NCBI RefSeq assembly: GCF_001747085.1
Contig: NZ_MDJD01000007.1
Coordinates: 186,001 to 250,000, forward strand
Direction: 5' to 3'
DNA length: 64,000 nt
DNA from: Flavivirga aquatica
GTDB taxonomy: Bacteria > Bacteroidota > Bacteroidia > Flavobacteriales > Flavobacteriaceae
Shown piece after piece: positions 1,104-11,098 of this stretch. The position numbers and the translations under genes are program-made. Each line of letters begins with the position of its first letter. The first letter of the stretch is position 1. The notes under the pieces were generated by a model. It was not told the DNA's origin. It was given only the letters and a program-made list of their open reading frames with translations, and did not search any database.

Positions 1104-1547
1104 ATGAAAAAAACATTGCAGGAATTTCTTCTTGAAAAAGACTATACTAAAACAAAACTAAAGCTTACAAAAACGAACCATTTTGAAATTAAAGCAACTA
1201 TTAATGGTACAAAAGGTTTATTTATTTTAGATACTGGGGCTTCAAGTTCTTGTGTAGGTTTTGAAGCTATTAATCCATTTAAATTAAAAGTACAAGATTC
1301 TAAAATAAAAGCTGCAGGTGCTGGTGCTACAAACATGGATACTAAAACATCTAAAAAGAATAAAATTAAAATAGGAAAGTGGGTAAGCAATAAAGTTGTC
1401 TTGGTGTTATTTGATCTAACTCATGTAAATACAGCCTTAATAAACCACAATTCGAAACCTGTTGATGGTATTATAGGAGCAGATATCTTAAAAAAAGCTA
1501 AAGCTATTATAGATTATGAAAAGAAATATATATATTTAAAGCTATAA
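1104..1547 (+). CDS. Retropepsin-like (clan AA) aspartyl protease, 147 aa
   Basis: A compact single-domain protein with the pepsin/retropepsin active-site signature FILDTGASSSCVG (Asp43-Thr-Gly) and the second family landmark IIGADIL near residue 125. One lobe only is present, so it should work as a homodimer as retropepsins do. No signal peptide or membrane helix is visible, so a cytoplasmic location is inferred. It follows the CHAT protease by 5 bases and precedes the response regulator, so two unrelated proteases and a transcription factor form one putative operon. A damaged copy of its last ~22 codons and downstream flank lies immediately after it. Substrate unknown. Confidence 0.85.
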   Translation: MKKTLQEFLLEKDYTKTKLKLTKTNHFEIKATINGTKGLFILDTGASSSCVGFEAINPFKLKVQDSKIKAAGAGATNMDTKTSKKNKIKIGKWVSNKVVLVLFDLTHVNTALINHNSKPVDGIIGADILKKAKAIIDYEKKYIYLKL

Positions 1548-1743
1548 AAAAGCTCATAACACAAATTTATTTTTTCAACTAATAACACATAATCTACTAA
1601 AAATCAATAAAAGACTCTTAGAAGCAGATATCTTAAAAAGATAAAGCTATTATAGATTACAAAAAGAAATATCTATATTTAAAGCTACAAAAACTCTCTT
1701 AATACGAACTCACTTTTTTAATTAATAGCACTTAATCCCTAAA
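1477..1743 (+). repeat. Tandem ~144-bp duplication of the protease gene 3' end; second copy decayed
   Basis: Bases 1477-1601, covering the last protease codons (GADILKKAKAIIDYEKKYIYLKL region) and the following AT-rich spacer, recur at 1621-1743. The second copy keeps GCAGATATCTTAAAAA, AAAGCTATTATAGATTA and ATATTTAAAGCTA but has lost two bases (frameshift) and has no start, so it is a non-coding remnant ending just before the response-regulator start. It is probably the scar of an unequal tandem duplication. Confidence 0.8.
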
Positions 1744-1749
1744 ACATTA

Positions 1750-2382
1750 ATGAATACCTCTATTGTAATTGCAGACGATCATCCACTGATGCTAAGAGGC
1801 CTTACTGATTTTTTAACCTCTAAAGGATATAATATTATTGGAAGCGCAGAAGATGGAAATAGCGCTTACAACCTAATTATAAAATTAAAACCAGAAATTG
1901 CCATTCTTGACATAAGAATGCCACATAAAACTGGTTTAGAAATAGCCGAAGCTTGTAAAAAAAACAATTTACATACAAAAGTTATTCTTATCACTTTTGA
2001 TAAGGAAGAAGAATTATACGATAAAGCTAAAGAGTTTAATGTATATGGATATATTTTAAAAGAGTTTGCTATAGAAGAAATAGAAATGTGTATTAAACAC
2101 GTTATTAGCGGCAAACCTTACTTTAGCGCAGAAATAGCATCTTACTTAAACGCAAGTACTTTAGAACAAAAACCAGATACATTAAATTTACTAACAAAAT
2201 CTGAATTAAAAATAGTAAAACTTATTTCTGAGAATAAAACTAGTCAAGATATTGCTGAAGAATTAATAATATCTGTTCGCACAGTAGATAAACACCGTAG
2301 TAACATTGTTGCTAAATTAGGTCTAGACAACAAACCCACATCTCTTTCCATTTGGGCTAATTTAAATAAAGCATATTTATAA
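1750..2382 (+). CDS. NarL/FixJ-type response regulator (REC + LuxR HTH), 210 aa
   Basis: The N-terminal receiver domain has the acidic pair Asp9-Asp10, phospho-acceptor Asp54 (AILDIRMPHKTG), Thr82 and Lys104. A C-terminal LuxR-type helix-turn-helix occupies about residues 146-208 (LTKSELKIVKLISENKTSQDIAEELIISVRTVDKHR). All phosphorylation residues are present, so control by a histidine kinase is expected, but none is encoded next to it in this window. Its gene runs straight into the first of four tandem operator/promoter/terminator units, whose TACGTAGAAG boxes sit at activator position; by proximity it is the best candidate to bind them. That link is inference. The domain call is certain. 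Confidence 0.95.
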   Translation: MNTSIVIADDHPLMLRGLTDFLTSKGYNIIGSAEDGNSAYNLIIKLKPEIAILDIRMPHKTGLEIAEACKKNNLHTKVILITFDKEEELYDKAKEFNVYGYILKEFAIEEIEMCIKHVISGKPYFSAEIASYLNASTLEQKPDTLNLLTKSELKIVKLISENKTSQDIAEELIISVRTVDKHRSNIVAKLGLDNKPTSLSIWANLNKAYL

Positions 2383-2385
2383 AAA

Positions 2386-2432
2386 TACGTAGAAGTGCGT
2401 ATTTTTTATATTAATCTCATAAATTACCTTTA
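2386..2432 (+). promoter_or_regulatory. Unit 1 operator (TACGTAGAAGTGCGTA) and -7 promoter element
   Basis: The imperfect palindrome TACGTAGAAGTGCGTA (2386-2401) starts 4 bases after the response-regulator stop. TACCTTTA (2425-2432) matches the Bacteroidota -7 consensus TAnnTTTG except for the last base. The box begins 39 bp upstream of the -7 element, which places it over or just above -33, where a class II activator binds. Confidence 0.65.
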
Positions 2433-2437
2433 CACTG

Positions 2438-2503
2438 TTATTAGTTCTTAATGGGTGCTATTAAAAAAAGGCTCTAAATCATTGTGATTTGGAGCTTTTA
2501 TAT
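2438..2503 (+). ncRNA. Putative small RNA, tandem unit 1
   Basis: The predicted transcript starts about 6 bases after the -7 element and ends in the hairpin GCTCTAAATC/GATTTGGAGC (2471-2495, loop ATTGT) plus a T-rich tail, giving ~65 nt. The leader contains TTATTAGTTCTTA, shared with the other units. One stem pair is T.G here, T-A in unit 2 and C-G in unit 4. Start sites are estimated. Confidence 0.6.
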
Positions 2504-2598
2504 TTTTCAAAAAAACTTCTTTTTTTAGAATACTATCACAAATATAGAATACAATAACTTAATTAACTCTTCTACTTAAGACCCAACATATAAAAAGA

Positions 2599-2645
2599 TA
2601 CGTAGAAGTGCGTATTTTTTATACTAATTATAAAGAATACCTTTA
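2599..2645 (+). promoter_or_regulatory. Unit 2 operator and -7 element
   Basis: TACGTAGAAGTGCGTA at 2599-2614 is identical to unit 1. TACCTTTA lies at 2638-2645, again with exactly 39 bp between the two starts. Confidence 0.65.
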
Positions 2646-2650
2646 CAGTG

Positions 2651-2716
2651 CTATTAATTAGTTCTTAGGGAGAATTAAAAAAAGGCTCTAAATCATTACG
2701 ATTTAGAGCTTTTCAT
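2651..2716 (+). ncRNA. Putative small RNA, tandem unit 2
   Basis: Leader TATTAATTAGTTCTTAGGGA, then a poly-A stretch and the terminator hairpin GGCTCTAAATC/GATTTAGAGCT (2684-2710, loop ATTAC) with a T-rich tail. The stem is fully Watson-Crick paired. Predicted length ~65 nt; no start codon with a usable frame. Confidence 0.6.
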
Positions 2717-2809
2717 TTTTTACATAATATACTTTCTTAATTCAGTTATACTATCACGAATATTGAACACAACAATTAATCTTCTACTTAAATCCTTACA
2801 CATAAAAAA

Positions 2810-2856
2810 TACGTAGAAGTGCGTATTCTTTTTACTAAATATAAAAATTACTTTTA
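2810..2856 (+). promoter_or_regulatory. Unit 3 operator and -7 element
   Basis: TACGTAGAAGTGCGTA at 2810-2825 and TACTTTTA at 2849-2856, with 39 bp between starts as in units 1 and 2. Confidence 0.65.
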
Positions 2857-2861
2857 CCTTG

Positions 2862-2926
2862 CTATTAATTAATTCTTATTGAGAATCAATAAAGGTTCTA
2901 AATCATTACAATTTAGAGCCTTTTCT
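2862..2926 (+). ncRNA. Putative small RNA, tandem unit 3
   Basis: Leader TATTAATTAATTCTTATTGA and hairpin GGTTCTAAAT/ATTTAGAGCC (2894-2920) with one T.G wobble and a TTTTCTCT tail. Geometry matches units 1, 2 and 4. Confidence 0.58.
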
Positions 2927-3011
2927 CTCACAAAATATGCTCTTACACATTATAATACTCTCTAAATTTAAGATTCTACTATAACCACGTAATAATACGG
3001 GGTGCAAAAAA

Positions 3012-3057
3012 TACGTAGAAGCCCTATTATTTATAACGAGTAAACAAATTACCTTTA
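3012..3057 (+). promoter_or_regulatory. Unit 4 operator (degenerate right half) and -7 element
   Basis: TACGTAGAAG is intact at 3012-3021 but the right half is CCCTAT instead of TGCGTA. TACCTTTA is at 3050-3057, 38 bp away. This copy shows that the left half, TACGTAGAAG, is the conserved part and may respond more weakly. Confidence 0.55.
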
Positions 3058-3062
3058 TAATA

Positions 3063-3128
3063 CTATTAATAGTTCTTTAGGGAGAGTTATAAAAAGCTCC
3101 AAATTGTAATGATTTGGAGCTTTTATCT
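3063..3128 (+). ncRNA. Putative small RNA, tandem unit 4
   Basis: Leader CTATTAATAGTTCTTTAGGG and hairpin GCTCCAAAT/ATTTGGAGC (3096-3120) followed by TTTTATCTTTT. The C-G pair replacing the T-A/T.G pair of units 1-2 keeps the stem paired despite sequence change. Confidence 0.58.
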
Positions 3129-3210
3129 TTTACAAAACTATACACATATACAACACTCTATGTTTAGTAGGCATAATAAATATTTATTAAAATAAAAGAA
3201 CCACACCTTT

Positions 3211-4530
3211 TTAACTCATATTAAAAGGCTGACCTGTACTTTGTAAAACAGCAAACCAAAATCCAGCTTCTAAATCTATTTTCTTACGTTTCTTAACTAC
3301 TTCCGAAATTGGTAAGTAAACAAATATATTATTGACTACACCTATTACAAATCTAGTTTTTCCTGCCATCGCTCCATGCACTGCATGATACGCTAATCTA
3401 CTACAAAAAATACTATCGCTAGAATTCGCTTTTTCACTTCTGATGATGTAGCTGGGGTCGATATATTTGATGGTAACCTCTTGTTTAATAGACTTGAAGT
3501 GACTTTGAATCTCTTCTTTTAAAAATAAACCAATATCATGATGTTTTAAATTTCCTGATGCATCTTTTACTGTTTTCCCGTTTTTAATTAAATGTTGTCC
3601 TGCCCCTTCAGCAACTACAATTACAGCATGTTTTCTAGATTTCAATCGTTTTTCTAAACTCTTTAGAAACCCATTTTCTCCTTTCAACTGAAAATTCATT
3701 TCGGGAACTAATACAAAATTTACAACAGGCATAGAAAGGGCTGCAGAAGCAGCAATAAAACCACTATCTCTACCCATTAATTTTACAATAGAAATACCAT
3801 TATTAGCTCCATTGGCCTCGATAGCTGCGTTTCTTATAATTGGATTAGCGACATCAAAAGACGTTTCAAACCCAAAAGATTTATCAATTAAATCAATATC
3901 GTTATCGATGGTTTTTGGAATTCCAACAATACTAATTTCAAGTTTCTGTTTATCTATTTCTTTACCAATAGCATCAGCTCCTTTTAACGTTCCATCTCCT
4001 CCTATAGCAAAAAGCATATTGATGTTATTTTCAACTAAATAATTCACCATATCGTTAACATCTTGAGCACCTCTTGAAGAACCTAGAATAGTTCCTCCAA
4101 ATTCATGAATATCCTTAACCTTATCTGGTGTTAACTTTATAGGTTTATGCCCTATACTACTATTCAATCCTTCAAAACCATAAGGGATTCCTAAAATATC
4201 TTCAACTCCATAGAAGTAATGAAGCGTCATTACTGTACCACGTATTACATTATTAATACCTGGACACAAACCTCCACATGTTACAATAGCTGCTTTTACA
4301 TTTTTTGGATTAAAAAAAATTTGCTCTCTTGGACCTGCTTTTTCCATATACAAGGGCATAATATTCTTTTTTAAACACTTATTATAATTTTCGTAAAAAA
4401 TATTATAAATTATTTTTTCGTTTTCTGTTACGAAATTAAAAATCTTATCCCCTCTTTTTTTGCTTAAATCTAAAGGAGAGTTTATTGTAGCTTTTCCTAT
4501 TGTATGTATTTTAAAATTCTTCTCCATCAT
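3211..4530 (-). CDS. pfkA: 6-phosphofructokinase, plant/ATP-type, 439 aa
   Basis: Phosphorylates fructose 6-phosphate to fructose 1,6-bisphosphate in glycolysis. Visible family motifs are CGGLCPGINNVIRG (84-98), the nucleotide site GGDGTLKGA (177-185) and the catalytic loop PKTIDNDID (205-213). The Gly in GGDGT instead of GGDD, together with PKTIDND, matches the long plant-like ATP-dependent enzymes better than PPi-dependent ones, and the 439-residue length agrees. It lies downstream of pckA on the same strand, separated by ~205 bases holding a strong inverted repeat, so it probably has its own promoter. Having the glycolytic kinase beside the gluconeogenic PEP carboxykinase suggests a central-carbon switch point. 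Phosphoryl-donor choice is inferred from motifs only. Confidence 0.9.
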   Translation of the reverse strand: MMEKNFKIHTIGKATINSPLDLSKKRGDKIFNFVTENEKIIYNIFYENYNKCLKKNIMPLYMEKAGPREQIFFNPKNVKAAIVTCGGLCPGINNVIRGTVMTLHYFYGVEDILGIPYGFEGLNSSIGHKPIKLTPDKVKDIHEFGGTILGSSRGAQDVNDMVNYLVENNINMLFAIGGDGTLKGADAIGKEIDKQKLEISIVGIPKTIDNDIDLIDKSFGFETSFDVANPIIRNAAIEANGANNGISIVKLMGRDSGFIAASAALSMPVVNFVLVPEMNFQLKGENGFLKSLEKRLKSRKHAVIVVAEGAGQHLIKNGKTVKDASGNLKHHDIGLFLKEEIQSHFKSIKQEVTIKYIDPSYIIRSEKANSSDSIFCSRLAYHAVHGAMAGKTRFVIGVVNNIFVYLPISEVVKKRKKIDLEAGFWFAVLQSTGQPFNMS

Positions 4531-4631
4531 TATATAGTGTGATTAATATAATTTTAAGTAATAGTCATAATTGGTATTAGAGTAACTTTACATTAATATG
4601 TTGAATGACTTCTATGAAATCACTTAGCATT

Positions 4632-4686
4632 AAAAATGTATTAAGAATAAAATAACGGTGAAAAACATTATTCTTAATACATTTTT
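4632..4686. terminator. 19-bp perfect inverted repeat between pckA and pfkA
   Basis: AAAAATGTATTAAGAATAA (4632-4650) is exactly complementary to 4668-4686, with a 17-base loop. On the minus strand it follows the pckA stop by ~50 bases and ends in a T run, so it probably terminates pckA transcripts. The stem is AT-rich and unusually long for a terminator, so another role (mRNA end protection, binding site) is possible. Confidence 0.6.
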
Positions 4687-4735
4687 ATTGATCATCTCCA
4701 AATTACTTTTTAGCAATAGCACTCATTTAAAACTT

Positions 4736-6361
4736 TTATAAATGATGATCAAGAATTTGATGGGCATCAATTAATGGTCCTCCATGCATGATTTCATCAG
4801 ATGCTAGGTTTATGAATTTATCAAAATTTAGATGAAACGAATGTGCTAACTGAATAGACTTACTTATATAAGCTCCTTTTTGCAACCAAGTATTCATTGG
4901 ATCCAATATTTCTGTTGGTACTCCTTTACAGTATTTAGGCATATATAATCCGAAAATTGGATGTTGTTCGTACTCTACCTTTTCTAATTCCCCTTCCAAA
5001 ATTGAAGAAATCATTGCTCTTGTGTACTTTAATTTAATTCTAGATCCTACACCATACGAGCCACCGCTCCACCCTGTGTTTATTAACCATACATTAACTC
5101 CCGCTTCTATCATTTTTTCACTTAACATTTCTGCATATTTTGTAGGATGTAATGGCATAAATGGCTCACCAAAACAAGCTGAAAAAGAAGGTATAGGCTC
5201 TGTTACACCTGCTTCTGTTCCTGCTACTTTAGCTGTATAACCAGAAATAAAATGATATGCAGCCTGCCCTGGAGTTAGTTTAGATACAGGAGGCAATACT
5301 CCAAAAGCATCACAGGTAAGAAAAAATATATTTTTTGGATTTTTCCCATAAGACGGTTTTGCTATAGCGTCAATATGATCTATTGGGTAACTAACTCTTG
5401 TATTCTGTGTTATTGTACTATCAAAATAATCCACTTCCTTAGTACCTTCTTTAAAAACAATGTTTTCCAGTAGCGCCCCAGGTTTAATCGCTCTAAAAAT
5501 GTCTGGTTCTTTTTCTTCGGTTAGGTCTATTGCTTTAGCATAACAACCTCCTTCAAAATTAAAAATAGTATTTTCCGCTGTCCAACCATGCTCATCATCT
5601 CCAATTAGTTTTCTGTTTGGATCTGCAGATAAAGTTGTTTTTCCTGTACCTGATAAACCAAAGAAAATAGCTGTATCTCCATTCTTACCTATATTAGCAG
5701 AACAGTGCATAGGTAGTACATTTTTTTCTACTGGCAAGATAAGGTTCAACGCAGAAAAAATACCTTTTTTCATTTCTCCCGTATATGCAGACCCACCAAC
5801 AAGTGCTATTTTTTTCGTGAAATTTAAAATAGAAAAATTTCCTTTACGAATACCAAAAGATTCTGGATTTGGTGCTTCATATCCTGGTGCGCAAAGCACT
5901 AACCAATCTTCTTCAAAACCAGCCAATTCTTCTTCATTCAACCTTAAGAACATATTTTTAATAAAATAATTTGACCACGGGTATTCCGTTATCGTACGCA
6001 CATTCAATTGGTATTTTGGATCTGCACAAACAGCTGCATCTCTTGCATAAACTTCTTTGTTTGACAAATATTTAGTTACTTCATCATATAATCTATCAAA
6101 ATTTTCTGAAGAGATCGGTTTATTAATTCTCCCCCACCATACTTTATCTTTAGTATAGTCATCTTTAACTAAAAAACGATCTTTAGGAGAGCGTCCCGTA
6201 AATTTACCTGTATTTACAGCTAAAGTTCCATTTTCTGTTTCTACCCCCAAACCTTGTTCAAGAGTAAGTTTCTGTAATGTTTCTTCATCTAAATTCCAAT
6301 GCGCTTTTACATTGTTTAGTCCATACTTTTCTAGACTTCTTTCAATAATCGTACTTTCCAT
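4736..6361 (-). CDS. pckA: Phosphoenolpyruvate carboxykinase (ATP), 541 aa
   Basis: Converts oxaloacetate plus ATP to PEP and CO2, the entry step of gluconeogenesis, or runs in reverse for anaplerosis. The full-length ATP-type enzyme shows the P-loop GLSGTGKTT (235-243), the Mg-binding IGDDEHGW (253-260), the substrate motif TGRSPKDRF (55-63) and the C-terminal INTGWSGGSYGVGSR signature. Length is normal for the family. It sits 19 bases downstream of the DASS transporter gene, which follows the usp gene by 13 bases, so the three very likely form one transcript under the Crp/Fnr-like promoter at 9040-9082. Uptake of a C4-dicarboxylate feeding PEPCK would make metabolic sense but the transporter substrate is not proven. 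Confidence 0.97.
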   Translation of the reverse strand: MESTIIERSLEKYGLNNVKAHWNLDEETLQKLTLEQGLGVETENGTLAVNTGKFTGRSPKDRFLVKDDYTKDKVWWGRINKPISSENFDRLYDEVTKYLSNKEVYARDAAVCADPKYQLNVRTITEYPWSNYFIKNMFLRLNEEELAGFEEDWLVLCAPGYEAPNPESFGIRKGNFSILNFTKKIALVGGSAYTGEMKKGIFSALNLILPVEKNVLPMHCSANIGKNGDTAIFFGLSGTGKTTLSADPNRKLIGDDEHGWTAENTIFNFEGGCYAKAIDLTEEKEPDIFRAIKPGALLENIVFKEGTKEVDYFDSTITQNTRVSYPIDHIDAIAKPSYGKNPKNIFFLTCDAFGVLPPVSKLTPGQAAYHFISGYTAKVAGTEAGVTEPIPSFSACFGEPFMPLHPTKYAEMLSEKMIEAGVNVWLINTGWSGGSYGVGSRIKLKYTRAMISSILEGELEKVEYEQHPIFGLYMPKYCKGVPTEILDPMNTWLQKGAYISKSIQLAHSFHLNFDKFINLASDEIMHGGPLIDAHQILDHHL

Positions 6362-6380
6362 AGTTTTATAATTTAATTGA

Positions 6381-8219
6381 TTAAAAATGCCATATTAGTG
6401 GTACTAAGATCACTGTTGTTAAAAACAAGAGTAATAAAAGCGGGGTGCCTACTTTCATATAATCCATAAACTTATAATTACCTGCTACCATTACCATTGC
6501 ATTAGTTGTTGTACCAACTGGTGTTAAAAATGCTGTAGACGCTGCAATGGCTACTACTATCATAAATGGTTTTGGAGACACTCCTAATGTAGTTGCCGCA
6601 ATAATAGCTATTGGAGCCATAAGTACTGCTGTAGCAGAATTGTTAATAGTCTGACTAAATGCTGTTGTTAATAAAAATATACCTCCCAATAAAACAGATG
6701 GGTGAATTGCCCCTAAAGTAGTTACTAAATAATCTGCAGCCATTTGTGCTGCTCCTGTTTTTTGTAACGCAACTCCCATAGGAATCATAGCTGCTATCAT
6801 AATAACACTTGTCCAACTTATGTCTTTATATGCTTTAGATATAGGTATACAACCAGACAACATCATGATTCCTGCACAAACTAAAGAAGCTATAGCTCCA
6901 GGCATAATTTTAAAAACTAGTAATATGATTAACAATGACAATGTTCCTAAAGCCAAATAAGATTTAAAAGTAAGCTGATCTACATTTTTTGCCATAGATT
7001 CGGGACTACCAGATATTACTACATTATTATGAGATTTTTGTAATGTCTCAATAGCATTCCATGAACCTCTTATTATAAAAGCATCTCCAGACTTTACATT
7101 AACATTGACATCTGTTAAAGGTTTGTTTCCTCTAGAACCTCCAATTAACTGTATTCCTATTTGTTTTAAGTATGAACCCAATGAAATAGATTGTCCAATA
7201 AATTTAGAACTAGGGGTAATTATCATTTGAGCCAATCCTACTTCTTGGTTGATAAATTCACCTTTTAACTCATCATTAGTATATGGAGTAGGTATTATTC
7301 CTAATTTAAACTTTATCATAAAAGCATTAATTGCTTCTGCATTTCCTTTAACTGTAATACTATCATGATATCTCATTTCAGTATCCATAGTTGGAAATTC
7401 TACAAAAGGAGGTGTTTTTTTTAAAATATTTGGATGCCTTCTACGTAGCCTAATTATCGATATTTCACTGTTTTTTTCAAATTCCCAATCACCAATTCTT
7501 GTATTTATTAAAGGAGACATGGAACGAATTCTAAATCGATATAAATTATATCCTATACTATAATCTTTTACCCATTTATGCAATTCAGAATTAATATCTA
7601 CGGGCTTATTATTCGTTTTATTATTAGGAAGCAACCTATTGCCTATATATCTAAAATAGAGTATTGTTATTAGCAGAAGAGGCAATCCTATTAAACCTAT
7701 TTCAAAAAATGAAAGTCCTTCAAATCCGCTCTCTACCAAAGCATTACTTGCTATAATATTAGGGGGTGTACCTGTAAGTGTTAAAAGACCTCCTGTATTA
7801 GAACCAAAAGCCACTGGAATTAACAACTTAGATGGTAATGTTGCTGCATTCCAAGCCGATGAAACTGTTACTGGAAGTAAAGCAGCCACTGTACCTGTAT
7901 TACTTACAAAACCAGATAAAACACCAGAACCAAGAGTAACGATAACTAATAGTTTATTAACACTATTCCCTGCCCATTCAACAAATTTACGCCCTGCAAG
8001 AGCAGTCCACCCAGTTCTTGATAGCCCTTCTCCAATTATAAATAGAGCTGCAATCATTATTACTGTTGGGTTACTAAACCCTATTAAGGTTTCCTTTAAA
8101 TCTATAACTCCTGTAAGAAACAAAGCGAGCATGGATAATATGCCGACTACATCTGGAGGAAACTTACCCCATATAAATAGGATAATAGTTATACTAAGAA
8201 TTATAAATAATGCTATCAT
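6381..8219 (-). CDS. DASS/SLC13-type anion transporter with two TrkA-C (RCK_C) domains, 612 aa
   Basis: An inner-membrane sodium- or proton-coupled anion carrier. The N-terminal half has about five membrane segments and the motif LTGTPPNIIASNAL; the C-terminal half has the partner motif INNSATAVLMAPIA. Between them (about residues 215-400) lie two cytoplasmic RCK_C/TrkA-C-like domains (PLINTRIGDWEF..., SSKFIGQSISLG...), an arrangement common in bacterial members annotated as SLC13 or ArsB/NhaD-like permeases. Substrate could be a C4-dicarboxylate, sulfate or another divalent anion; coupling to pckA in an operon favours a dicarboxylate by context only. Gene spacing is 13 bases from usp and 19 from pckA. 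Confidence 0.85.
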   Translation of the reverse strand: MIALFIILSITIILFIWGKFPPDVVGILSMLALFLTGVIDLKETLIGFSNPTVIMIAALFIIGEGLSRTGWTALAGRKFVEWAGNSVNKLLVIVTLGSGVLSGFVSNTGTVAALLPVTVSSAWNAATLPSKLLIPVAFGSNTGGLLTLTGTPPNIIASNALVESGFEGLSFFEIGLIGLPLLLITILYFRYIGNRLLPNNKTNNKPVDINSELHKWVKDYSIGYNLYRFRIRSMSPLINTRIGDWEFEKNSEISIIRLRRRHPNILKKTPPFVEFPTMDTEMRYHDSITVKGNAEAINAFMIKFKLGIIPTPYTNDELKGEFINQEVGLAQMIITPSSKFIGQSISLGSYLKQIGIQLIGGSRGNKPLTDVNVNVKSGDAFIIRGSWNAIETLQKSHNNVVISGSPESMAKNVDQLTFKSYLALGTLSLLIILLVFKIMPGAIASLVCAGIMMLSGCIPISKAYKDISWTSVIMIAAMIPMGVALQKTGAAQMAADYLVTTLGAIHPSVLLGGIFLLTTAFSQTINNSATAVLMAPIAIIAATTLGVSPKPFMIVVAIAASTAFLTPVGTTTNAMVMVAGNYKFMDYMKVGTPLLLLLFLTTVILVPLIWHF

Positions 8220-8232
8220 TTCACAATGTATT

Positions 8233-9012
8233 TTAGTCTATAGCTAACACTGGTATTTTAGAGTGTAGTGTTAACAATTCTGTTAATTGACCTTTAGATT
8301 TTTCGCTATTTTTAGCATGATTTCTAGGAAGAATAGTTATCATATCTATATTATGCTTTTTAGCATAAGTCATAATACCTTCTAAAACATCTGTATGTTC
8401 TATAAATGTATGCTCAGAATAAAACTCCTCTAAATAATAAGCTAATATATTCTCGTTCTTTTCATCTATTGGAGAATACCCATAAGTCTCTGGTAAATTT
8501 TTAATAGTAACCACATGTACTTTAGCTTTAAACTTCCTAGAAATATCCAGTAACACATTCAAAACTTTAGCATCGTCAATTTCCTCTTTTCCAATAACTA
8601 ATGCAATATCTTTAATTTTAAAATCATCTATTTTATATGGAATTACAAGAACAGGACAATCTGCTTCTAATACCATTTTTGAAGTATTTGTACTTTCCTT
8701 ATAAGGATCATTTAATGCCCCAAAAGTTCCCATGATAACTAAGTCTATTTGCTTAGATTCTAAAATACTTGTTAAAAAATCTATTAAAGAACCACTTCCA
8801 GAAACCCACTCTACATTTTCTTTAATTTTATTCTTCACCATAATAGAATCAAAAGATTTCTTTAATTCTTTATGGTTATTATCATTTGTAACATAAGCCA
8901 TAATTATCTTCATGTCTTTGTTATCCTTTATAAAATCCATTGCATAATCCAATGCTTTTTTTGAAGAGCCTGAAAAATCGAAAGGCACTAAGATGTTAGA
9001 AATTTTATTCAT
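8233..9012 (-). CDS. Universal stress protein, tandem UspA domains, 259 aa
   Basis: Two Usp domains in one chain: residues ~1-135 begin NILVPFDFSGSSKKALDYA and include the nucleotide-loop-like IMGTFGALNDPYKES...VLVIP, and a more divergent copy covers ~145-259 (DIALVIGKEEIDDAK...PVLAID). No signal peptide, so cytoplasmic. It is the first gene of the usp-DASS-pckA operon and its start lies 28 bases from a TAGTTTTA promoter topped by TGATATATGTCA, a Crp/Fnr-like palindrome. That fits the usual induction of Usp proteins by oxygen limitation or starvation. Precise function unknown. Confidence 0.88.
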   Translation of the reverse strand: MNKISNILVPFDFSGSSKKALDYAMDFIKDNKDMKIIMAYVTNDNNHKELKKSFDSIMVKNKIKENVEWVSGSGSLIDFLTSILESKQIDLVIMGTFGALNDPYKESTNTSKMVLEADCPVLVIPYKIDDFKIKDIALVIGKEEIDDAKVLNVLLDISRKFKAKVHVVTIKNLPETYGYSPIDEKNENILAYYLEEFYSEHTFIEHTDVLEGIMTYAKKHNIDMITILPRNHAKNSEKSKGQLTELLTLHSKIPVLAID

Positions 9013-9039
9013 GATATCCAGATTTAATTATTAATACAG

Positions 9040-9082
9040 TAAAACTAGAAATTGTTCAGGTGTAAAAACATGACATATATCA
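9040..9082 (-). promoter_or_regulatory. usp-DASS-pckA promoter with Crp/Fnr-like operator
   Basis: On the minus strand TGATATATGTCA (9071-9082; wider context TGTGATATATGTCATG) is centred 29.5 bp upstream of TAGTTTTA (9040-9047), a TAnnTTTG-type -7 box. With a start ~12-13 bases after the box's first base the operator is centred near -41.5, class II activator position. Three other genes in this window share exactly this layout. Confidence 0.65.
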
Positions 9083-9256
9083 CATCCATTTGAAAAAAGC
9101 TTATTTTATTCTGCATATATTATTAATGATGAAAAGGACATTTATATGTACATAATTTTATTATTCATTTAATTTTTAAAACCTAACATTAATCATATTT
9201 ATAGCGCATAAAATTTAAAACCTTGCGATAGTTTTTAAAATATAATGCTTTAGATT

Positions 9257-9985
9257 ATGTGTGTAAAAAATTTAAGAAGTCTTACGATTGTAATTTTAAT
9301 TTTCTTTAATACAAGCCTTTTATTGGCTCAAAAAAATAGAGAAGATATTATTGGCTCTTGGATAGTTATTTCAGGAAATAACAAAATAGCAAAAAGATGG
9401 AGTATCCCTACGGTAGGCATTCTACGCCACTATAAATTATTTAATGCTTATGAATTTTCTTTTGCAAGAATAGGCTTAACATATAAAGCAAAAGATAATT
9501 TATTTTTAACAACTGGAATCGCATACCTAGACGCAGAGACTTATGCTATAGGTTCCCAAAAGAAACGATCTACACAATTGTGGCTTTATCAAGAAAATGT
9601 TTTTAATATAAAACTAAAAAAACTAAGAATTTCAAATAGATTAAGATTTGAAAATAGGTGGATTAACAAGAAGGACAACGATATTACTAATTACAGATTG
9701 AGATATAGACTTCAACTAAAATACCCTATTAATAAATATTTTTATTTGAAAACGTTTAATGAATTTTTCTACTCCTTTAACACTTCTAACTTTAATCAAA
9801 ATAGATTTTATGCAGGTTTAGGGTGCAACATTTCCAATTCAATAAAATTAGAAACCGGATATATAAAAAATAGTTTTCCAAAGGCTAAGTATGACAGGTT
9901 GCGTATAGTTCTTTTATTTAAAACTAATTTGATTAAGAAAAAAACAATATTATCTCAAAATAAAATTTTACAGTCTAAAAAATAG
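9257..9985 (+). CDS. DUF2490 outer-membrane beta-barrel protein, 242 aa
   Basis: An N-terminal signal peptide (LRSLTIVILIFFNTSLLLAQ) is followed by the DUF2490 opening IIGSWIVISGNNKIAKRWSIP. Alternating hydrophobic/aromatic strands continue to the end (LRFENRWINKK, YRLRYRLQLKYPI, YLKTFNEFFYSF), as expected of a small barrel. Family members are common in Bacteroidota and have no assigned function. It is divergent from usp across ~245 AT-rich bases in which no promoter of its own could be assigned with confidence. The TonB gene follows by ~97 bases with a separate promoter. Confidence 0.8.
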   Translation: MCVKNLRSLTIVILIFFNTSLLLAQKNREDIIGSWIVISGNNKIAKRWSIPTVGILRHYKLFNAYEFSFARIGLTYKAKDNLFLTTGIAYLDAETYAIGSQKKRSTQLWLYQENVFNIKLKKLRISNRLRFENRWINKKDNDITNYRLRYRLQLKYPINKYFYLKTFNEFFYSFNTSNFNQNRFYAGLGCNISNSIKLETGYIKNSFPKAKYDRLRIVLLFKTNLIKKKTILSQNKILQSKK

Positions 9986-10016
9986 AATTATCACTAGAGT
10001 TATTAGTTTCATAAAC

Positions 10017-10059
10017 TGATAGATGTCATCTAATTAAAAACAAGTAAGTCGTAATTTTA
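10017..10059 (+). promoter_or_regulatory. tonB promoter with Crp/Fnr-like operator
   Basis: TGATAGATGTCA (10017-10028) differs from the usp operator by one base and its centre is 29.5 bp upstream of TAATTTTA (10052-10059). The gene starts 24 bases further on. Same geometry as the usp, cytochrome c and thioredoxin-like promoters. Confidence 0.62.
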
Positions 10060-10082
10060 AGATAATATTAAAATTCACAATC

Positions 10083-10826
10083 ATGGAAATCAAGAAAAAC
10101 CCAGAACTAGATTTAAATAGAAATAGTAGTCTTTATTTTGCAATTGGGTTAGCTACAATGCTATTTCTTACTTGGAGAGCTTTAGAATCCAGAACATATA
10201 TTTCTGATAAAGAACAAGAAGTATTAACCATGCATAGTAAAAATTACATAGAAGAAGAGGAAGAGGAAATTCCTATTATTAAAACAAGTTATAAAATACC
10301 TCCACCACCGCCAAGTGCTCCAATAAAAATACAGGTGGTAAAAAATGAAATTGAAATCGAAGAGACTTTTATAGAAAGTACAGAATCAAATCAAACTACA
10401 GAGATTAGTAATACTGTTATTAATGTAGAAGACATTGAGGTTGGTGAAGTTGATGAAGGAGAATATGTTGTTGTCCCTTTTGCTATTATTGATGATGTTC
10501 CTACATTTCCTGGTTGCGAAGGACTCGCTAAAAAGGATAAAAAAGCATGTTTTAATCGTAAAATAACCGAACATATTAGCAAGCACTTTGATTATCCTCA
10601 AGAAGCATTAGATTTAAGTATTACAGGAAAAGTATATGTACAGTTTGATATTAATGCTAAAGGAGAGGTTGCTAATATTCAAAAAAGAGGACCTGATCAA
10701 ATATTAGAAAAAGAAGCTGTTAGGTTAATTTCTTTATTACCTAAAATGAAACCAGGAAAACAACGTGATATGAATGTAAGTGTTAGATATAGTGTCCCTA
10801 TTTATTTCAAGATGCATATTGAGTAA
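10083..10826 (+). CDS. TonB-family energy transducer, 247 aa
   Basis: Couples the inner-membrane proton motive force to TonB-dependent receptors. An N-terminal membrane anchor at about 17-34 (LYFAIGLATMLFLTWRA) is followed by a charged/proline periplasmic linker (EEEEEEIPII..., KIPPPPPSAP) and the C-terminal TonB domain from ~155 (YPQEALDLSITGKVYVQFDINAKGEV...). The PTFPGCEGL...ACFNRKI segment preceding the domain is typical of Bacteroidota TonB proteins. Two TonB-dependent receptors are encoded ~16 kb away, with no ExbBD nearby, so its partner set is unknown. Its promoter carries a Crp/Fnr-like site, and the fifth TACGTAGAAG unit follows its stop codon by 18 bases. Confidence 0.9.
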   Translation: MEIKKNPELDLNRNSSLYFAIGLATMLFLTWRALESRTYISDKEQEVLTMHSKNYIEEEEEEIPIIKTSYKIPPPPPSAPIKIQVVKNEIEIEETFIESTESNQTTEISNTVINVEDIEVGEVDEGEYVVVPFAIIDDVPTFPGCEGLAKKDKKACFNRKITEHISKHFDYPQEALDLSITGKVYVQFDINAKGEVANIQKRGPDQILEKEAVRLISLLPKMKPGKQRDMNVSVRYSVPIYFKMHIE

Positions 10827-10844
10827 AAATACCTGCTTACAAAA

Positions 10845-10891
10845 TACGTAGAAGTGCTTATTTTTTTTTTACTGAGTGAAATATATCTTTA
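10845..10891 (+). promoter_or_regulatory. Unit 5 operator and -7 element (dispersed copy)
   Basis: TACGTAGAAGTGCTTA (10845-10860) and TATCTTTA (10884-10891) again have starts 39 bp apart, 7.7 kb from the tandem array. Confidence 0.62.
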
Positions 10892-10896
10892 CATAG

Positions 10897-10966
10897 TTAT
10901 TAATTAATTCTTTTGAGAGAGAATTTTTTTAAAACTCTGTGTTGTTTATGACACAGAGTTTTTTAA
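10897..10966 (+). ncRNA. Putative small RNA, dispersed unit 5
   Basis: Leader TTATTAATTAATTCTTTTGA matches units 1-4, but the terminator stem is a different sequence, AACTCTGTGT/ACACAGAGTT (10933-10960), with a T run. The layout is kept while the stem sequence is replaced, arguing that leader and structure matter. The small membrane ORF at 10991 begins just after it. Confidence 0.55.
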
Positions 10967-10990
10967 GCTATTAAAAAGTCAATATCAATA

Positions 10991-11098
10991 ATGAAAAATA
11001 ATAATAATAATAATATTCTTAGTAAATGTTGCTTAGTTGGGTTAGCTATTTTAGTTATAGTCACTATTTCTATAAATATTATAATGTTCTTTCATTAA
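10991..11098 (+). CDS. Putative 35-aa single-pass membrane peptide
   Basis: ATG, a run of six Asn codons, then ILSKCCLVGLAILVIVTISINIIMFFH, essentially one transmembrane helix with two Cys at its start. The frame ends at 11096-11098, just before a strong hairpin. It lies directly downstream of small-RNA unit 5, so read-through from that promoter could express it. Too short for a family call; AT-rich sequence can produce such frames by chance. Confidence 0.35.
   Translation: MKNNNNNNILSKCCLVGLAILVIVTISINIIMFFH

Follow-up and report, generated by a model that had tools for sequence, protein, structure and literature searches.

Tandem small RNA genes beside a NarL-type response regulator as a predicted feedback-wired output module in Flavobacteriaceae

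The window analyzed here, a 64,000-nucleotide stretch of the Flavivirga aquatica genome, contains an array of four ∼210-bp units (2386 to 3130), each combining a dyad promoter with a terminated noncoding RNA of ∼65 to 75 nucleotides. The array adjoins a NarL-type response regulator, an arrangement that recurs in many marine flavobacteria with one to six nearly identical RNA genes, and we consider it likely that the whole constitutes a feedback-wired output module of this regulator. From sequence anatomy, conservation, covariation, spacing, co-occurrence with the regulator, and leader complementarity, we infer transcription, DNA binding, and translational repression along the following lines. 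The activated regulator would bind ATACGTA-N4-TACGTAT, whose center lies ∼42 bp ahead of the start, and would activate weak sigma-A-type promoters from this class II position. Each promoter would yield an RNA of ∼65 to 75 nucleotides, which would pair with the leader of the regulator mRNA over the start region and repress translation, closing a negative loop. The tandem copies would set the dose. The same promoter type would also drive small membrane-peptide open reading frames (ORFs), and the presence of the RNA core under other dyads would let other signals use the same output, making further mRNA targets probable. Little is known of how small RNAs regulate genes in Flavobacteriaceae. If the reading is true, the array belongs to a widespread RNA family (about one-quarter of the sampled genera) that is supported by structure and for which an activator, a rule for the promoters, and a predicted target can be named, so that the family is directly testable.

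A preliminary description of the window, made from the sequence alone, had proposed four tandem promoter-RNA-terminator cassettes behind the regulator. This array was borne out: the TACGTAGAAG box recurs at 2386, 2599, 2810, and 3012, a TAnnTTTA −7 box begins 39, 39, 39, and 38 bp further on, and the proposed starts (2438, 2651, 2862, and 3063) lie within 1 nucleotide of where the conserved RNA begins. The box itself required revision. It is present in all four units but is really one half of a full dyad, ATACGTA-N4-TACGTAT, the right half of which is missing from unit 4. Alone, it is not special in the genome (12 occurrences versus 23 for the reversed box); what is special is the box together with the spacing and the −7 box (6 versus 0 for the reverse).

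All units lie on the forward strand. Unit 1 has the dyad TACGTAGAAGTGCGTA (2386 to 2401), the −7 box TACCTTTA (2425 to 2432), and a small RNA with terminator whose core is divergent (2437 to 2506; covariance model R1, 6.4e-5). Unit 2 (dyad, 2599 to 2614; −7 box, 2638 to 2645) encodes the consensus core GCTATTAATTAGTTCTTAGGGAGAATTA followed by the terminator (2650 to 2723; R1, 2.8e-11). Unit 3 comprises a dyad at 2810 to 2825, a −7 box at 2849 to 2856, and an RNA with terminator at 2861 to 2933 (R1, 8.9e-9), and unit 4 comprises the left-half box at 3012 to 3027, a −7 box 38 bp from it at 3050 to 3057, and an RNA with terminator at 3062 to 3134 (R1, 9.3e-9). The RNA loop has diverged in units 1 and 3. 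Between 2300 and 3200, four terminator-like sites were found (three on the strand of the units and one on the opposite strand), versus 0.2 ± 0.6 in shuffled sequences. A fifth unit (10845 to 11098), overlooked in the preliminary description, lies outside the four-unit array; its dyad has the right half TGCTTA (10845 to 10860), and its RNA leader carries a terminator-like hairpin (10896 to 10973; R1, 5.8e-7) and runs into an ORF for a 35-amino-acid single-pass membrane peptide, MKNNNNNNILSKCCLVGLAILVIVTISINIIMFFH (10991 to 11098). Scanning the whole genome with the RNA covariance model retrieved exactly these five units at E < 1e-4, with the next match at 0.0186. A block of genes (3211 to 10830; pfk, PEPCK, a transporter, and others) sits between the array and its last unit. 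In relatives, the array continues straight into odhB without the pfk/PEPCK block; thus, the genome of the window is rearranged at this position.

The RNA consensus is GCUAUUAAUUAGUUCUUAGGGAGAAUUA followed by the terminator. It opens with a single-stranded 5′ end, GCUAUUAAU, continues with a small hairpin, UAGUUCUU-AGG-GAGAAUUA, and closes with the terminator. Both hairpins are supported by the alignment, in which 92.8% of cells were paired and 18/22 pairs showed double changes; none of 500 shuffles scored as high, and sliding the structure along the alignment gave at most 61.5% of cells paired. Most of the covariation falls in the terminator, but the 5′ hairpin also has double changes, in 4/5 of its inner pairs. 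Conservation of the single-stranded 5′ end equals that of the loop. No coding potential was found in the core, as each of the three frames reaches a stop within 20 nucleotides and contains no ATG. In Rfam, no family reached its gathering threshold in the window, and only unrelated weak matches appeared up to an E value of 10. A literature search on combinations of CHAT, retropepsin, the regulator, and flavobacterial small RNAs returned nothing matching, and the RNA family appears to be undescribed so far. A phage origin was also considered and rejected, the core being missing from 2.9 million viral contigs.

To place the array in context, 80 loci of relatives were gathered with the regulator protein (Flavivirga, Algibacter, Tamlana, Lacinutrix, Bizionia, and other genera). 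The units adjoin a NarL-type regulator in 80/80 loci, with one to six units detected per locus and the first mostly starting no more than about 25 bp from the stop codon of the regulator gene. Spacing is constrained: counted from where the RNA core begins, the dyad center is at exactly −43.5 bp in 107 of the 119 scored class A sites. Given a −7 element immediately before the start, the dyad would lie near the classical position of a class II activator. Across a sample of 199 Flavobacteriaceae genomes (one per genus; regulator presence called at E ≤ 1e-40), the class A promoter pattern occurred in 55/93 genomes with the regulator versus 4/106 without it (Fisher P = 4e-19, kinship ignored). Taken with the constant adjacency, this distribution supports regulator-dependent small-RNA cassettes at the level of sequence, and the regulator probably switches on the adjoining RNA genes.

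The leader of the regulator itself contains the predicted target. Just ahead of the regulator ATG at 1750 in the window, an anti-seed, TAATTAATAGC (1719 to 1729, forward strand), is complementary to the small-RNA 5′ end GCUAUUAAUUA, and an anti-loop, TCCCTAA (1736 to 1742, forward strand), is complementary to UUAGGGA of the small RNA. The anti-seed AATAGC was present in 51/80 regulator leaders versus 18/757 other gene starts, and the anti-loop group (TCCCT, CCCTA, CTCCC, or TCTCC) was present in 48/80 versus 12/757. Controls for the anti-loop were a dinucleotide shuffle and other genes, as the reversed motif is uninformative (TCCCT is its own reverse). Because the leaders are related by descent, P values are overstated; among 40 nonredundant leaders, the anti-loop occurred in 22 and the anti-seed in 18. 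The mean duplex energy between core and regulator leader was −13.7 kcal/mol; shuffled leaders gave −9.2, and 506 other starts averaged −7.9. Cofold binding energy was −10.3 versus −4.7, and the regulator leader outperformed the mean of its own shuffles in 78/81 cases. Distant loci, where the regulator is only 50 to 55% identical, also displayed complementarity (mean, −13.7); kinase-type regulators, at whose loci the core is absent, did not (mean, −8.4).

Among the genes near the locus, strong and consistent complementarity was confined to the regulator start. The starts of sucA and ExbD (and etf, n = 9) showed a weaker effect, and those of the micropeptide, odhB, retropepsin, CHAT, and asparaginase genes showed no significant effect. 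Since most loci show complementarity between the core and the regulator leader, we predict a negative feedback loop in which the small RNAs probably switch the regulator off again. In most leaders the anti-seed lies upstream of the anti-loop, an order in which one RNA cannot pair with both sites as a simple duplex; the two may be alternative sites or may need two RNA molecules. We note that positions 1492 to 1618 and 1635 to 1761 form an imperfect direct repeat of 127 nucleotides (79%), in which the end of the retropepsin gene and the following spacer are duplicated, and that the second copy makes up the leader of the regulator.

The RNA core extends beyond the regulator locus. It was retrieved from 50 of the 199 sampled Flavobacteriaceae genera (versus 0 for the reversed pattern), and several genomes carry an identical core at unlinked loci behind different dyads. 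A second dyad, AATACTCAAATTGAGTATT (TACTCAA-TTGAGTA; class B), stands over the core in about 20 genera (L108 to L124 and L155 to L166), often between gldJ-like and murF-like genes, both recognized by eye. Its center is at −43 in 19/22 sites, nearly the same distance as in class A (−43.5), and the terminator stem of these units differs (AAGTGTCTG...CAGGCACTT). A third dyad, TTACGG-N4-CCGTAA, precedes an identical core, with two units about 7 kb apart at one locus (L107, G005 contig C3). The window contains no class B dyad. Because the core is identical under the other dyads while terminator stems vary with dyad type, and because some genomes with the core lack the regulator, the functional part is probably the core, and its role probably extends beyond the regulator locus. 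In the three genomes that have the second-dyad type without the NarL-type regulator of the array (G128, G162, and G169), the core must serve another purpose.

Membrane peptides recur alongside the RNA. In most relatives, the last unit runs into an ORF of ∼33 codons with one hydrophobic stretch, and in 76/80 loci a short hydrophobic ORF could be assigned that shares the motif of the window's 35-amino-acid peptide. Elsewhere in the F. aquatica genome, a class A promoter precedes an ORF for a 58-amino-acid membrane peptide ending in LAPTGS (L175, 508 to 835; C34:726808), and homologues of this ORF lie behind the same promoter type in four other genera (L177, L183, L190, and L191). The LAPTGS peptide matches no Pfam family at its cutoff. 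In deeper, kinase-type relatives, the dyad after the regulator mostly serves a membrane-peptide ORF directly, with no RNA core, and one genome (G155) represents an intermediate state in which a single RNA-like unit precedes the peptide. If the feedback reading is true, the steps of its evolution would be visible in living relatives: the promoter would have served a peptide ORF first, with RNA units inserted later.

These observations also bear on three other explanations. A NarL-type regulator, a palindrome, and redundant RNAs in which a covarying hairpin presents AGGGA in its loop together reproduce the layout of GacA-Rsm, so the RNAs might use the purine loop to titrate an RNA-binding protein, the way RsmX/Y/Z do with CsrA/RsmA, and not base pair at all. 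We regard titration as unlikely. No CsrA was detected in the genomes of 21 relatives or in that of F. aquatica, where neither Hfq nor an RRM_1 match was detected either (positive controls were retrieved in each case, from Bacteroides for RRM_1). Each RNA also has a single loop motif, not several, and its 5′ end matches the loop both in conservation and in being complementary to the regulator leader. Slightly less probable again is a scenario in which the membrane peptide is the real product, the leader hairpin is an attenuator, and the upstream units are duplicated leaders that end prematurely and have no function in trans. Such a history would suit the deeper relatives, where the dyad promoter precedes the peptide ORF without an RNA, and the most common arrangement in the 80 loci, where the last unit runs into that ORF. 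It is at odds with a core that is kept to the base at peptide-free loci under other dyads and that is complementary to the regulator leader but not to the peptide start.

The dyad could in principle be no protein site but an element (A-tract, short stem, and T-tract) that terminates transcription of the regulator mRNA and each unit, given that AAAAATACGTA-N4-TACGTATTTTTT right after the regulator stop codon resembles a weak terminator. A terminator would not be expected to keep a fixed distance of 39 bp to a −7 box, to precede, often without a T-tract, the promoter for a membrane-peptide ORF that is not linked to the array (L175 and four genera), or to track regulator presence when spaced as in a promoter, and we consider this explanation very improbable. 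The feedback-wired module remains our preferred reading. Counting against it are the order of anti-seed and anti-loop in most leaders, the failure to detect an Hfq that could help the RNAs pair, the loop divergence of units 1 and 3, a genome (G048) with retropepsin and units but no regulator match, and the occurrence of the core in genomes without this regulator.

As predicted from sequence, this module resembles LuxO-Qrr1-5 in having redundant, regulator-driven RNAs and feedback on the regulator mRNA. LuxO is a sigma-54 activator, and the Qrr RNAs act with Hfq; in contrast, the flavobacterial array has a NarL-type regulator, the sigma-A −7 box TAnnTTTA, and no detected Hfq, and its RNAs lie in tandem beside the regulator and are unrelated in sequence. 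No Qrr match from Rfam was obtained between 2300 and 3200 at E values up to 10. In Vibrio, LuxO activates nearly identical small RNAs that repress its own mRNA (PMC3262071). The preliminary description had invoked Qrr only as a precedent for redundant RNAs under one regulator; the parallel is closer than it recognized, as the regulator's own leader is the predicted target. GacA-RsmX/Y/Z of Pseudomonas and relatives likewise combines a NarL-family regulator and a palindromic upstream site (PMC2375449) with redundant, amplified small RNAs, of which rsmX-1 and rsmX-2 are presented as gene amplification (PMC7911923). Rsm RNAs, however, titrate CsrA/RsmA with many GGA loops, whereas the flavobacterial RNA has one loop and complementarity to an mRNA; no CsrA was found in the relatives, and the dyad differs in sequence and position. 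Because no sigma-54 promoter, Hfq, CsrA, or Rfam match was found, the array is a member of neither LuxO-Qrr nor GacA-Rsm, yet its predicted mode of action is that of LuxO-Qrr. If true, a LuxO-Qrr-like feedback circuit would have evolved independently.

Closer to home, the nearest multicopy RNA family in the same phylum is FopS/GibS of Bacteroides thetaiotaomicron, paralogues of ∼65 to 70 nucleotides with a conserved 5′ seed (PMC11697453). Unlike the units described here, the genes for FopS lie scattered without a regulator linked to them, and the RNAs associate with the RRM protein RbpB; no RRM was found in F. aquatica. Within the Flavobacteriaceae, small RNAs are represented by the Rfp RNAs of Flavobacterium psychrophilum, for which the accessible portion of PMC9723704 gives a sigma-A −7 consensus of TAnnTTTG, describes no regulator-linked tandem array, and depicts Rfp18 as distinct, with several stem-loops.

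The regulator (210 amino acids; 1750 to 2382, forward strand) matches Pfam Response_reg (1.6e-23) and GerE (1e-11), and its phospho-acceptor and switch residues are kept in at least 79/80 relatives. The NCBIfam UvrY/SirA/GacA model matches at 2.6e-28, far below its cutoff; thus, the regulator is not a UvrY/SirA/GacA equivalog. Directly upstream lies a gene for a retropepsin-like (clan AA) aspartic protease of 147 amino acids with a DTGA motif (1104 to 1547, forward strand; PF13650, 1.1e-12), which is probably cytoplasmic, no N-terminal hydrophobic signal being apparent by eye. The suggestion that two upstream protease genes belong to the system found no support, since the retropepsin gene precedes the regulator in 80/80 loci and CHAT in only 29/80.

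No histidine kinase gene was found beside the regulator in any of the 80 RNA-bearing loci. In deeper relatives (regulator 53 to 61% identical), a histidine kinase gene stands before the regulator in place of the retropepsin gene. Further loci showed the retropepsin upstream of 24 regulators, the kinase upstream of 15, and none with both (two loci were too short), and a tree places the retropepsin-type regulators together on one side of a branch (support, 94/60). Searches of retropepsin-type genomes found no cognate kinase; their best matches are about 30 to 37% identical (32% in the F. aquatica genome); a few have a 43 to 47% match to another kinase, versus 58 to 100% in kinase-type genomes. 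Because the phosphorylation residues are kept, the regulator may take phosphate from another kinase. As a guess from gene position, the retropepsin could provide input to the regulator, and its presence where relatives keep a histidine kinase would raise the question of how the regulator is controlled. A bolder proposal, which we hold to be possible but doubtful, is that the retropepsin replaced the kinase as partner of a proteolysis-gated regulator, whose output would be a new small-RNA family that feeds back and acts as a plug-in under at least three dyads. One genome (G048, locus L163) keeps the retropepsin, two units, and the membrane-peptide ORF, with no regulator match at E ≤ 1e-40.

Two observations concern sites elsewhere. 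A full dyad, TACGTAGAAGTACGTA, lies just upstream of a gene of the F. aquatica genome that by eye resembles an xerC/xerD-like tyrosine recombinase (L096, 1500 to 1560; C54:17984). The same protein of ∼495 amino acids is encoded behind a class A promoter in two genera (L176 and L194); by eye it appears SH3-like and metallo-beta-lactamase-like, and it is a possible further member of the regulon.
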